DNA of 64,000 nucleotides from Halogranum rubrum (GTDB lineage Archaea > Halobacteriota > Halobacteria > Halobacteriales > Haloferacaceae): contig NZ_FOTC01000003.1 in assembly GCF_900114455.1 (NCBI RefSeq), positions 246,124-310,123 on the forward strand. The letters run 5' to 3'. How positions within the stretch are numbered: the stretch's first letter is position 1; every line of letters begins with the position of its first letter. The notes beneath the pieces were generated by a model, which ran no database searches, was not told the origin of the DNA, and was given only the letters and a program-made list of their open reading frames with translations. Of the stretch, positions 1-46,921 are shown piece after piece. Both the position numbers and the translations under genes were made by a program.

Positions 1-1437
1 CACGCCCTGCTCGCGCTCGGATTCGTCGCACTCGTCCCCTACGCCAAGCCGTTCCACATGATTTCGTCGTTCGCCAACGTCGTCACCCGCGACGAGAAAG
101 CGGGCAAGCGCCTTCCCGGTGTTCCGGCCGACCTCGCGCCCGACGACATCGGCTACACCTCCGCCGACGACTTCTCGTGGAAACAGATGCTCGACATGGA
201 TGCCTGTACGAAATGTGGCCGGTGTTCGGCCGTCTGTCCGGCGAAGGCAAGCGGTCGAAACCTCGACCCGCGAGACGTCATCCTCGACTTGAAACAGTAT
301 CGCGACGACCTCGACGCCGGCCGAACGGAGTCCGTCGACATCGTCGCCGACGGCGGTTCTTCGGTGATTGCCTCCGAGTCGATGGAGTCGTGTATGGCCT
401 GCATGGCCTGCATGGACGCCTGCCCGGTCGAAATCGAGCACTTGAGCCACTTCACCGAGATGAACCGGCGGCTAACCGAGACGGGGCAGATGCAGGAGTC
501 GGTTCAGGAGACGATGATGAACGTGTTCCAGAACGGCAACACGTTCGGCGAACCCGAGCGCAAGCGCGGCAACTGGACCGACGAACTCGACTTCGAGGTG
601 CCGGACGCCCGCGAGGAAGACGTCGAGTTCCTCTGGTACGTCGGCGACTACCCCTCCTACGACGAACGGAACCAGCGCGTCGCCCGCGCGATGGCGCGGC
701 TGTTCCACGAGTCGGGCGTCTCTTACGGCATCCTCTACGAGGACGAGAAACACGACGGTAACGACGTCCGGCGCGTGGGTGAGGAAGGCCTCTACGAGAT
801 GCTCGTCGAGGACAACGTCGCCGCCTTCGACGACTGCGAGTTCGAGAAAATCGTCTGTACCGACCCACACTCGTACAACACGTTCATGAACGAGTATCCG
901 GAGATGGTCGACGGCTTCGACTACCCGATCTACCACTACACGCAAGTCGTCGAGTCGCTCGTCGACTCGGGTCGTCTAGGTCTCGACGGCACCGAACTCG
1001 ACTACAGCGTCACCTACCACGACCCGTGTCACCTCGGGCGGTACAACGGCGAGTACGAGGCCCCACGGGCGGTCATCCGCGCGACGGGCGTGACGCTCTC
1101 GGAGATGCCGCGCAACCGCAAGAACTCGTTCTGTTGCGGCGGCGGTGGCGGCGGCCTCTGGATGGACCTCGAAGAGGAGTCGAAACCGAGCGAAGAACGA
1201 CTCCGCGAGGCACTGGAGGACACCGACGCCGGGTCGGCAGTCGAGAAGTTCGTCGTCGCCTGTCCGATGTGCGGGACGATGTACGAAGACGGTCGGAAGA
1301 CGGGGAACTTCGAGGACGACATCGACATCGTCGACATCAGCGAACTCATCGTCGAAGCGCTCGACGCGAAAGCGGCCCGGTCGGGTGCAGTGAGTACGGA
1401 CGAGTTCGGCGGCGGACCGGCGACGGCCGACGACTGA
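1..1437 (+). CDS. HdrD-like (Fe-S)-binding oxidoreductase, 5' end outside window
   Basis: The reading frame is open from base 1 (a hydrophobic stretch precedes the first in-window ATG at 58), so the gene begins before the window and probably has an N-terminal membrane domain. Counting from that ATG, two [4Fe-4S] motifs are seen: CTKCGRCSAVCP near residue 50 and CMACMACMDACP near 112. A CCG-type domain follows, with DPCHLGRY near 324, CCGGGGGG near 361 and CPMCG near 402; an earlier CCG repeat looks degenerate. This is the architecture of heterodisulfide-reductase subunit D / glycolate-oxidase-type Fe-S proteins. In haloarchaea, which lack methanogenesis, such proteins are thought to pass electrons from flavoproteins to the quinone pool. 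The acyl-CoA dehydrogenase at 3650 fits that idea, but the link is inference. Confidence 0.88.
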   Translation, partial: HALLALGFVALVPYAKPFHMISSFANVVTRDEKAGKRLPGVPADLAPDDIGYTSADDFSWKQMLDMDACTKCGRCSAVCPAKASGRNLDPRDVILDLKQYRDDLDAGRTESVDIVADGGSSVIASESMESCMACMACMDACPVEIEHLSHFTEMNRRLTETGQMQESVQETMMNVFQNGNTFGEPERKRGNWTDELDFEVPDAREEDVEFLWYVGDYPSYDERNQRVARAMARLFHESGVSYGILYEDEKHDGNDVRRVGEEGLYEMLVEDNVAAFDDCEFEKIVCTDPHSYNTFMNEYPEMVDGFDYPIYHYTQVVESLVDSGRLGLDGTELDYSVTYHDPCHLGRYNGEYEAPRAVIRATGVTLSEMPRNRKNSFCCGGGGGGLWMDLEEESKPSEERLREALEDTDAGSAVEKFVVACPMCGTMYEDGRKTGNFEDDIDIVDISELIVEALDAKAARSGAVSTDEFGGGPATADD

Positions 1438-1531
1438 GTCGGGACGTCGCTGTCGCTGGGAGTCGAGCCAAAAATCGAAGCGTCGAGAGTCGAAGAATCG
1501 ACGAGTCGACAAAACCGACGGCCGAATCGAC

Positions 1532-1987
1532 TTAGTTGTCGTCGTACTCTTTCTTGAACCCGCGGAACTCCGTGCGGTGGGCTTCCTCGTCTGCGAGGTT
1601 GCCGACGGCCAGGTCCTCGGTTACTGGGTCGCCTGCTTCTTCGGCCGCGTCGATGATAGCGCGGTAGGTTTCAATGGCGTCTTCCTCGGCGTCGAGGACA
1701 CCGTTGATGACCGAGAGGACGTCCGTAGAGTCCTCCGGCGGCTGGAGGCTGTCCTGGTTCGCCTGGAACTCGGCCGAACCCGGCGGACGCTCGTCGAGTT
1801 GCTTCAGACGCTGGCCGATCATCTGCGCGTGGTTGAGTTCCTCCTGAATGTCCGCCTGCAGTGACTCCTTGATCTCCTCGGCGTGGATACCGTCGAGGAT
1901 GATGGAGTTCGTCATGTAGTTCATCACCGTCTCGATTTCGTCACCGTACGCCTTCTTCAGCAGGTCGGTAACTTCCTGAGAGGTCAT
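1532..1987 (-). CDS. Ferritin-like / bacterioferritin-family protein
   Basis: The 151-residue protein is predicted to be all-helical with diiron-carboxylate motifs. A first Glu lies in DEIET near residue 17, an ExxH pair in EELNHAQ near 49-53, a Glu in EEDAIETY near 103, and a final ExxH in DEEAHRTEF near 134-137. This is the four-helix-bundle pattern of ferritin-like proteins, which oxidise and store iron or detoxify peroxide. The ATG is followed directly by the helix start MTSQEVTDLL. It is convergent with the Fe-S oxidoreductase gene. The subfamily (bacterioferritin, Dps or rubrerythrin-like) cannot be fixed by eye; no rubredoxin or haem-binding Met is evident. Confidence 0.8.
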   Translation of the reverse strand: MTSQEVTDLLKKAYGDEIETVMNYMTNSIILDGIHAEEIKESLQADIQEELNHAQMIGQRLKQLDERPPGSAEFQANQDSLQPPEDSTDVLSVINGVLDAEEDAIETYRAIIDAAEEAGDPVTEDLAVGNLADEEAHRTEFRGFKKEYDDN

Positions 1988-2106
1988 TGCACCCTCAACT
2001 TACCTCGCCACGGACAAGAAGGTACTCGCCGGAGCAAAATACGGTGGTCGTCGAGGGCCGAAGCGCATCACGGAAACCGTCTCACTGAGCGGACTCCCGT
2101 CTCTCT

Positions 2107-2631
2107 TCAGCAGCCGTCTTGGACACCGCTGTCGGCGGGCGGTGTCTGTCGAAACGAGACCTCGGCCGTACCCGAGAGTCCGTGGTCGCCGCTCTCGTCT
2201 CTGTCCCACCGGAGTTCGCCCGTCGTCGACTCGTCGGAGAACCCGGTTTCTCGCAGACGGAACCAGAGCACGAGGTCGTCGACACCGTCGCCGTCCACGT
2301 CGCGGACGCGACACGCTCGGACTGCCTCGGCACCGCCGCCGTCTGCGACGACTTCGGGTGCGCCGAATCGATAGCTCGACGCTTCGCTCGTCGCGTCGAC
2401 GTCGTCGACGTTGGTCACTGCCACGCGGACGAATCCGCGGTCCGGATGCGGAAGCGGTCGACTGTCGACGAAGGGCGCGACGTCGACGTCCAGTTCGGCG
2501 GGGAAGTGTGCGACCGCAGTCCCCGAAAGCGTCGACAGCGTGCCACCGGCCGTGATAAGGCCGAAGAGGCCGGTCAGCACAGTTCGTCGGTCGGTCCGTC
2601 TCGTCGGTGAGTGTCGAGTTCGGGTCACCAC
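2107..2631 (-). CDS. Tat-exported protein with DxDGDG calcium-type motif
   Basis: A GTG start (2631, or the adjacent GTG at 2628) gives about 174 residues. The N-terminus is a twin-arginine signal: RRTDRRTVLTG near residue 10-20, then a hydrophobic run ending in AVAHF. Tat export of folded proteins is the main secretion route in haloarchaea. The mature part is Asp-rich and has VRDVDGDGVDDLVLWF near residue 110, which resembles Ca-binding loops of FG-GAP/dockerin-like repeats, here as a single copy. No enzymatic motif is seen and the function is unknown. It probably acts outside the cell or at its surface. Confidence 0.6.
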   Translation of the reverse strand: MVTRTRHSPTRRTDRRTVLTGLFGLITAGGTLSTLSGTAVAHFPAELDVDVAPFVDSRPLPHPDRGFVRVAVTNVDDVDATSEASSYRFGAPEVVADGGGAEAVRACRVRDVDGDGVDDLVLWFRLRETGFSDESTTGELRWDRDESGDHGLSGTAEVSFRQTPPADSGVQDGC

Positions 2632-2699
2632 ATAATCCGAATACTGGGCGGAACAAAGGCCATCTGGCGCACTCCTCGAAAACGATTCTCGAAAACAGC

Positions 2700-4813
<2,114 letters not shown>

Positions 4814-38002: not shown

Positions 38003-38120
38003 GTCCACTAATCGCTGCCGACGCGGTGTCGTCGTCGGGGATTTTTTCGTGTTTTACAGGAGGACGCTGACGCTGCGAAGGCGTCACCATCCACAGAGGG
38101 AAGTACAATGGATAGCGTTT

Positions 38121-38183
38121 CCCGGATTTGAACCACGGTCACTCCACTCGCTTACGCTCGTTTCGTTCCCTGATTCAAATCCG
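38121..38183 (-). repeat. tRNA-Pro T-arm fragment with inverted copy
   Basis: Bases 38121-38142 match the 3' part of the intact tRNA-Pro (38281-38302) at 20 of 22 positions; the T-stem 5' strand is altered. A perfect 10-bp inverted copy (CGGATTTGAA at 38123-38132 against TTCAAATCCG at 38174-38183) closes a 41-base spacer that begins CCACGGTC and ends TCCCTGA. The same plan is seen beside tRNA-His (46691-46762). Confidence 0.85.
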
Positions 38184-38198
38184 CGGTCATCCAGACAG

Positions 38199-38266
38199 AT
38201 GCGAGTCGAATTCGTACTCGCACACGCCTCGCTATCGCTCGACGGTGCTCAGTGGATGACTCGCAT
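38199..38266. repeat. Long inverted repeat downstream of tRNA-Pro
   Basis: GATGCGAGTC (38199-38208) and GACTCGCATC (38257-38266) form a perfect 10-bp stem around a 48-base loop that contains CTCGCT-type repeats. The element ends 8 bases before the tRNA 3' end. It may act in 3' processing or termination of the tRNA transcript, or be a trace of the neighbouring element. Confidence 0.6.
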
Positions 38267-38273
38267 CAGAAAT

Positions 38274-38345
38274 GGGATCGCCCGGATTTGAACCGGGGTC
38301 ACGGGCACCCAAGGCCCGAAGTATACCAGGCTAACCCACGATCCC
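38274..38345 (-). tRNA. tRNA-Pro (anticodon UGG)
   Basis: Reading the minus strand, a 72-base cloverleaf is formed: acceptor GGGATCG pairs with CGATCCC, the D-arm contains GGTTAGCCTGG, the anticodon stem-loop CGGGC-CTTGGGT-GCCCG gives anticodon TGG, and the T-arm is CCCCGGTTCAAATCCGGG. No CCA is encoded and no intron is present. Its T-arm is partly copied just downstream, at 38121-38183. Confidence 0.93.
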
Positions 38346-46625: not shown

Positions 46626-46635
46626 GTGGGGCGGC

Positions 46636-46762
46636 GAGAATCGAAGCAGACCGAGGTTCTGCGTGGAACACAGAGATGAGGGCCAGGTGCGAGAATCGAA
46701 CCACGGTCGGACGTGCTCGCTCACTACCGTTCGCTGTGCGCGACCTCCCTGCTTCGATTCTC
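46636..46762 (-). repeat. tRNA-His T-arm fragments with inverted copy
   Basis: A 20-base piece at 46683-46702 is identical to 46850-46869 of the intact tRNA-His. A further copy at 46636-46649 (GAGAATCGAAGCAG) and one inverted copy at 46749-46762 (CTGCTTCGATTCTC) form a perfect 14-bp inverted repeat; 46691-46700 pairs with 46753-46762 over 10 bp. The 52-base spacer begins CCACGGTC and ends TCCCTGC, as at the tRNA-Pro locus. Confidence 0.85.
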
Positions 46763-46799
46763 TTCGTACGGACTTCTCCTCACGTACTGTCTGTTCGCG

Positions 46800-46819
46800 G
46801 TGCTCGCTGACGCGAGCAC
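46800..46819 (-). terminator. Stem-loop downstream of tRNA-His
   Basis: GTGCTCGC-TGAC-GCGAGCAC is a perfect 8-bp stem with a 4-base loop, 27 bases beyond the 3' end of tRNA-His. It could end or protect the tRNA transcript. No T-run follows, so the role is tentative. Confidence 0.45.
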
Positions 46820-46846
46820 ACGCTCACCGAGTGGCGTTCGGAAGAA

Positions 46847-46921
46847 GGTCCAGGTGCGAGAATCGAACCCGCGTCTCAGCCTCCACAAGGCTGAAGGATG
46901 GTCCACTACCCCAACCCGGAC
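46847..46921 (-). tRNA. tRNA-His (anticodon GUG)
   Basis: The minus strand gives a 75-base cloverleaf: acceptor GTCCGGG pairs with CCTGGAC (one G-U), discriminator C73, D-arm GGGGTAGTGGACC, anticodon loop TTGTGGA (anticodon GTG) closed by CAGCC/GGCTG, and T-arm GCGGGTTCGATTCTCGC. The base before position 1 is T in the genome, so the G-1 identity nucleotide of tRNA-His is not encoded and must be added after transcription. No CCA is encoded. Confidence 0.92.

Follow-up and report, generated by a model that had tools for sequence, protein, structure and literature searches.

Anatomy of the tRNA-anchored units

The window, a stretch of 64,000 nucleotides, is part of a 4.57 Mb haloarchaeal genome and contains a tRNA-Pro and a tRNA-His gene, both on the minus strand (ARAGORN). 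Downstream of each tRNA we found a unit of the same design (Table 1). Read on the tRNA strand, the tRNA tail is followed by a T-rich stretch with a hairpin (H1), an inverted T-arm piece (tail', 10 bases in both the Pro and the His unit), a second hairpin (H2) and a direct copy of the tail, joined at GG|TTC. The copied piece was the whole tRNA tail, from T54 to the tRNA 3' end, CCA not included. The junction lay at G|TTC throughout the units, always at T54. T-rich stretches followed both the tRNA and the tail copies, and H1 and H2 formed alternating centres of symmetry. The units were ~80–200 bp long and without genes, and their commonest H2 ends were CAGGGA…GACCGTGG.

Table 1 Features of the tRNA-Pro and tRNA-His loci in the window.
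Feature	Position	Strand	Basis
tRNA-Pro (TGG), source of the copied tail	38273..38345	-	ARAGORN; Rfam RF00005, 57.4 bits
Pro unit, H1 hairpin, arms GATGCGAGTC/GACTCGCATC	38198..38267	-	sequence
Pro unit, tail', inverted tRNA-Pro T-loop/T-stem 3' side (CGGATTTGAA)	38174..38183	-	sequence comparison
Pro unit, H2, TCAGGGA...GACCGTGG, 2-bp helices with purine internal loops between them	38133..38173	-	sequence/folding
tRNA-Pro direct tail copy, 15/20, exact across TTCAAATCCGGG (38121-38132)	38113..38132	-	tail matching
tRNA-His (GTG)	46847..46920	-	ARAGORN; Rfam
His unit, T-rich start and H1 hairpin	46763..46846	-	sequence
His unit, tail' (GAGAATCGAA)	46753..46762	-	sequence comparison
His unit, H2 (GCAGGGAGGTCGCG...GACCGTGG)	46701..46752	-	sequence/folding
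tRNA-His direct tail copy, 19/20, reaching the tRNA 3' end	46681..46700	-	tail matching
Second, decayed tRNA-His tail copy, 15/20	46626..46645	-	tail matching

The second tRNA-His tail copy is likely the remnant of an older unit. At tRNA-His of another genome (G009), we observed tandem 107-bp units with an H2 from a different family (CACGCGAGAC...GTCTCGCACCG). This H2 is not of the CAGGGA type, so the unit plan exists without CAGGGA.

A sequence-only reading had described the Pro element as a 22-base T-arm copy, a spacer and an inverted T-arm piece, with the same plan at tRNA-His. The coordinates held. The direct copy at 38121–38142 matched 20 of 22 bases at 38281–38302, and CCACGGTC (38133–38140), TCCCTG (38167–38172) and the inverted piece (38173–38183) were all confirmed in place, as was the His unit (46681–46762). 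The 22-base match held only partly: six of its bases (GTGACC, tRNA strand) belong to a generic H2 motif, GTGACCGTGG, and the tRNA-derived part of the Pro copy is therefore TTCAAATCCGGG (15/20 of the tail). The “T-arm copy” had to be corrected to a copy of the entire tail, of which the T-arm is just a part. The spacer between CCACGGTC and TCCCTG turned out to be an ordered hairpin, the commonest among several H2 families, and a second hairpin, H1, was located between tRNA and element (38198–38267; 46763–46846).

Frequency in the own genome

The own genome gave 11 matches to CAGGGA-N10-40-GACCGNGGTTC, the Pro and His units included, and none to the reversed pattern. Copies of the tRNA’s own tail (≥18/20) were found downstream of 25 of the 68 tRNA calls (ARAGORN) and upstream of four, the latter being adjacent tRNA genes. 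With tails permuted among the tRNAs, downstream copies averaged 0.66 and never exceeded 3, vs the 25 observed. ARAGORN overcalled slightly in this genome (68 calls vs 64 Rfam tRNAs), and a few of the 25 copies were tandem tRNA genes. The pattern is beyond chance.

A virus- or plasmid-like region of the same genome (C13:160615–164451; loci L044, L045 and L356) packed some dozen tRNA genes into 4 kb. Good own-tail copies were almost absent from this cluster, which we use as an internal contrast.

Spread across haloarchaea

The pattern was present in 28 of 40 genomes of relatives, and the reversed-pattern control in none of the 40. A scan of 84,980 species returned at least 118 loci, and every listed locus belonged to a haloarchaeon or a euryarchaeal MAG. 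We collected 168 distinct haloarchaeal units. A same-sense tRNA lay within 500 bp upstream of 156 of them, an antisense tRNA in no case. The tRNAs beside units covered 32 anticodons, the tail copy had a mean identity of 94% with the adjacent tRNA tail, and the median distance between tRNA end and CAGGGA was 59 bp. Most of the 12 units without a nearby tRNA were close to contig ends or beside an integrated element, and at least one was spurious.

In a phylum-wide sample, 33 of 43 Halobacteriales genomes had matches. Outside this order, single matches were found in 18 of 204 genomes, none with the hairpin. The phylum-wide counts, like the interpretation of the sequences listed, are our own. In this sample the family is limited to Halobacteriales. 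The units thus form a Halobacteriales-wide family of tRNA-anchored [tail-H1-tail'-H2] repeats, located downstream of a tRNA and in its sense, with tail and arm matching that tRNA.

Matching of the arms to the adjacent tRNA

Across tail bases 8–20, the copy scored 11.1 against its adjacent tRNA, vs 5.7 with permuted tRNAs (maximum 6.2). For the inverted arm the scores were 5.4 and 4.1 (maximum 4.5). Tail copy and arm exceeded all 1000 permutations.

A general element with tRNA-specific arms had been proposed from the window, to be refuted by a lack of further instances or by arms not matching the adjacent tRNA. Neither was the case: further instances occurred at other tRNAs of the own genome and across Halobacteria, and the arms matched. 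The arms were constrained over only about 9–12 bases, the match being strong just across this first part. That a process copies each tRNA’s own sequence remains an inference.

Structure of the H2 hairpin

H2 followed a recognisable grammar. It had either 2-bp helices split by internal loops (GA/GA, GAA/GGA or GGA/GGA) or a triloop on a 5-bp stem. Sheared G.A pairs in the purine loops are inferred. Near its base H2 was asymmetric, which can be drawn as a bulged G. In the commonest class (29 distinct sequences), 93.7% of the cells paired and 12 of 22 pairs had double changes. Doubly changed cells numbered 51, vs 14.5 expected by shuffling, and the covariation score was 0.263 vs 0.112; neither value was reached in 500 shuffles. 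Sliding the partner by one column halved the pairing. Because the structure was drawn from the same 29 sequences, part of the cell pairing is built in; this does not apply to the double changes.

The sense-strand H2 folded better in 153 of 156 sequences, and the purine loops were on the sense strand only, showing that the units are structured on the tRNA-sense strand. The inner stem had 10 G.T mismatches vs one A.C; a folded sense strand is compatible with this, be it DNA or RNA. Arm mismatches were balanced (35 G.T, 36 A.C), without strand bias. Triloops were the commonest apical loops (43/93), the third base of GNNA tetraloops was almost always a pyrimidine, and wobble pairs were few. GNRA is the usual tetraloop in RNA, and triloops or GNNA loops with a pyrimidine are closer to stable DNA mini-hairpins. 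On this general ground the H2 apex appears more DNA-like than RNA-like, with the choice between the two undecided. The compensatory changes in H2 also leave RNA and single-stranded DNA unseparated.

A cmscan search against Rfam recovered tRNAs only, with no Rfam family for the units and no relationship to RtT. In the window at large, GA-type apical hairpins numbered 17, vs 8 under a simple Markov expectation. This excess is only about twofold, and such hairpins are therefore not obviously a genome-wide feature.

Gain, loss and arrays of units

At tRNA-Leu(CAA), one species had four units and its sister species one, with the same flank. Among the 53 species of one genus, several genomes were empty at this tRNA and others had one unit, the flank resuming exactly past the tail. 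Such precise occupied/empty pairs were seen on two unrelated flank sequences. Units are therefore present, absent or tandem as exact units. At tRNA-Lys of genome G178, four identical 111-bp units adjoined the tRNA, followed by diverged units with a different H2. In the 56 multi-copy loci, the better tail match was tRNA-proximal in 27, distal in 6 and tied in 23. This proximal preservation may point to growth beside the tRNA, but gene conversion by the tRNA would do likewise.

H2 hairpins within a genome resembled each other across different tRNAs (similarity 0.240, vs 0.085 between genomes; permuted maximum 0.138), and the same tRNA had different H2 classes in different species. H2 types are thus genome dialects common to different tRNAs. 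Together, these two observations indicate that H2 has been moved or converted between tRNA loci, with arms and tail matched to the host tRNA.

Two side observations concerned tRNA-Leu(CAA). In L438, L439 and L395, a second tRNA copy, truncated at its 5' end, had a hairpin inserted into the variable arm; interruption of tRNA copies by similar hairpins is therefore not confined to the T-loop. In L391–L417 and L421–L446, another hairpin, built from an inverted acceptor-stem piece (TGCGGAAGA...TCTTCCCTCGCA), lay past the last tail, representing another arm-from-tRNA design.

Mobile elements at the same loci

Integrase-bearing elements occurred at loci L221, L288 and L295 and on C14 of the own genome. 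The C14 element (C14:112788–120199, L376) was ~7.4 kb long, integrated at tRNA-Lys(CTT), and had a 401-aa tyrosine recombinase at its right end. The element in Haloterrigena salina (L221, about 100–3250) was 3.1 kb long and located at tRNA-Val; it encoded a broken-looking integrase and an ORC-CDC6-like/AAA ATPase. Both were located after the tRNA tail and ahead of H1, and each had a short tail copy of its own at its right end; in L288 and L295 a tail fragment likewise preceded H1. As the elements lie on the tRNA side of H1, the units appear to be resident flank and not an element attP. They are not classical integrase scars.

PF00589 counts did not correlate with unit counts across genomes, and no integrase was tied to the units. 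Genome G011, with nine units, had a single PF00589 protein, nearest to the archaeal XerA model but below its cut-off.

A viral origin was rejected. Strict viral scans gave no match with the TTGAA arm and one with the TCGAA arm (L084), beside a complete tRNA-Glu, and the viral matches of the loose pattern were almost all without arms. A plasmid similarity search found none. Retroposition of mature tRNA fragments was likewise rejected, the copies being without CCA.

Alternative explanations

Two readings that require no recombination system are not excluded by our data. The units could be RNA: tRNA transcription, itself inferred here, would continue into the unit and yield a structured trailer or a small RNA. 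In it, the tail copy would act as a decoy tRNA 3' end, sequestered by tail'. This possibility is supported by a fold that is good only on the sense strand and always in the tRNA sense, by the strong compensatory changes in H2, the 10:1 ratio of G.T to A.C mismatches in the inner stem, and the T-rich stretches after tRNA and copies. Against it stand the clean absence of units at orthologous tRNAs of sister species, the few wobble pairs and non-GNRA tetraloops, the variation of H2 class between species at one and the same tRNA, and the lack of an Rfam family. Slightly less likely is that the units arose passively. Slippage or unequal crossing-over would duplicate tail-H1 in tandem, fold-back synthesis at H1 would give tail', and quasi-palindrome correction with gene conversion would keep tail, tail' and H2 matched, without a dedicated enzyme. 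Exact tandem arrays, the alternating symmetry centres of H1 and H2, and arm mismatches without strand bias fit this reading, and short direct repeats would suffice for loss between 20-bp tails, as reported for Haloquadratum (PMC3119063). Against it count the asymmetric H2 ends CAGGGA/GACCGTGG, kept across Halobacteriales and >30 anticodons, the constant junction at T54, and the H2 modules common to unlinked tRNAs, and a purely mutational process would be expected on both strands and elsewhere.

Explanations by known mobile elements fared worse. The units could be scars or mini-satellites of integrative elements which use tRNA tails as attB (SNJ2-type and others) and have lost their interior. 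Integration typically duplicates the tail at tRNA 3' ends, and genuine elements with integrases exist at these loci. However, the arms are inverted and tRNA-specific, the units lie outside the right ends of the integrated elements, so that the attL/attR criterion is not met, and the same H2 at 32 anticodons is unexpected from site-specific integrases. We regard this origin as unlikely and, as a general one, largely refuted. Still less likely are non-autonomous IS200/IS605-like palindromes (PATE/REP type) moved by Y1 transposases, although the units are short palindromes with a single-strand hairpin logic and PATEs are known in haloarchaea (PMC3119063). Eight genomes with up to 11 units had no Y1_Tnp (PF01797), six genomes with up to 10 Y1_Tnp had no units, and the two counts were uncorrelated across genomes (Spearman 0.04). 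In addition, the tail is duplicated at the target and the arms change with it. As a general requirement, Y1 transposition is refuted.

A proposed folded single-strand recombination site

The best account we can offer takes H2, with tail' and tail on either side, as a recombination site that would act as folded single-stranded DNA, in the manner of the attC of integrons. It is inferred by analogy, and our doubts clearly outweigh our confidence. The evidence comprises unit orientation, arm and tail matching, precise gain and loss, the G|TTC junction, proximal preservation, covariation, the sense-strand fold, the DNA-like apex and the spread of H2. In attC, an extrahelical G, 9–11 nt of pairing and a variable terminal structure, from 3 unpaired nt, have been described (PMC2727003).

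In the attC-like model, tail' and tail would pair into the recombinase-binding helix, an extrahelical or mismatched G would give strand polarity, and the hairpin top would be variable. Transcription of the tRNA may expose the sense strand. Strands would be exchanged in the T-loop, at G|TTC or beside it, so that one unit is gained or lost and the tRNA stays undamaged, the tail being the same in every unit. The tRNA would take the part of attI, its T-loop being the docking site; new units would enter next to the tRNA and old tails would be pushed outward. A swapped tail would ruin the tRNA, so the tail would have to match; for tail', the constraint would be the folding of the box. The model would thereby account for tRNA-specific ends, exchangeable H2 and precise gain and loss together. 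A tyrosine recombinase would be the likeliest enzyme, with a chromosomal XerA-like protein as candidate, none being linked to the units. An archaeal XerA binds stem-loop att structures weakly (reviewed in PMC8371274).

Against the attC-like site, we saw neither an excised circle nor a cargo-carrying unit. The balanced arm mismatches, the PF00589 counts that do not follow unit counts and the position of the extrahelical G also speak against it, and the 10:1 G.T ratio of the inner stem suits RNA as well. Several of its supports also allow other readings: unit absence could reflect loss by homologous recombination between 20-bp tails, proximal tail identity could stem from gene conversion, and the likeness of G|TTC to the integron R box might be coincidence, G|TTC being near-invariant in tRNAs. 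A bolder version, an undescribed gene-less integron-like system of Halobacteriales, anchored at tRNAs, with T-loop insertion, outward accumulation and perhaps a Xer-type recombinase, is no more than a possibility.

Comparison with known systems

In the literature searched, which left out most subscription papers, we found no description of the units, only prophage partial tRNAs and PATEs. Like attC (PMC2727003), the units are imperfect palindromes with conserved complementary ends, a variable top, an extrahelical G and strand-specific folding, and like integron arrays they have a G|TT junction and a tandem array that may grow from an anchor. Unlike integrons, they are gene-less, have no linked IntI-type integrase and use the tRNA T-loop as anchor; their end boxes change with the tRNA, and their extrahelical G is on the tail-copy side, the opposite arm to attC.

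Downstream of tRNA-Tyr, the tyrT/rtT locus of E. coli has tandem repeats that each include about 19 bases from the 3' end of the tRNA. The units likewise follow a tRNA in tandem and repeat its 3' end. However, rtT is one bacterial locus, not known to have an inverted arm or a shared H2 hairpin, and the units span an archaeal order and 32 anticodons. The archaeal SNJ2 integrase site is a 13–14 bp core at the tRNA 3' end (PMC8371274). The att sites of SNJ2, pNOB8 and SSV use the same DNA, the tRNA tail, but need an element and an integrase and have no inverted tRNA-specific arm; elements of this type sit here at the tail-H1 junction. Haloarchaeal PATEs/REP (PMC3119063) are also short, mobile-looking palindromes. 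In contrast to the units, which occur without Y1 genes, they are linked to Y1 transposases and have no fixed target and no tail copy. CRISPR arrays share the alternation of a repeat (here the tail) with intervening units, and far-end repeats that are more decayed, but in our units the intervening sequence is a conserved hairpin family, unlike foreign spacers. Integrons, integrase scars and Y1-linked elements each have a defining feature that the units, when tested for it, lacked.

If the units are a recombination system, a site-specific process would act at many tRNA genes and leave them undamaged, and it might be one reason for tRNA 3' ends being integration hot spots. If they are RNA, a whole archaeal order would have a so far unrecognised class of structured RNAs linked to tRNAs. 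Sister species with and without a unit at the same tRNA make direct testing feasible under either reading. What is new is a repeat family whose arms take on the sequence of the adjacent tRNA, a description that stands far more firmly than any claim on mechanism. Such arms, changing to fit each neighbouring tRNA, are unlike the target-blind repeats known in microbes.
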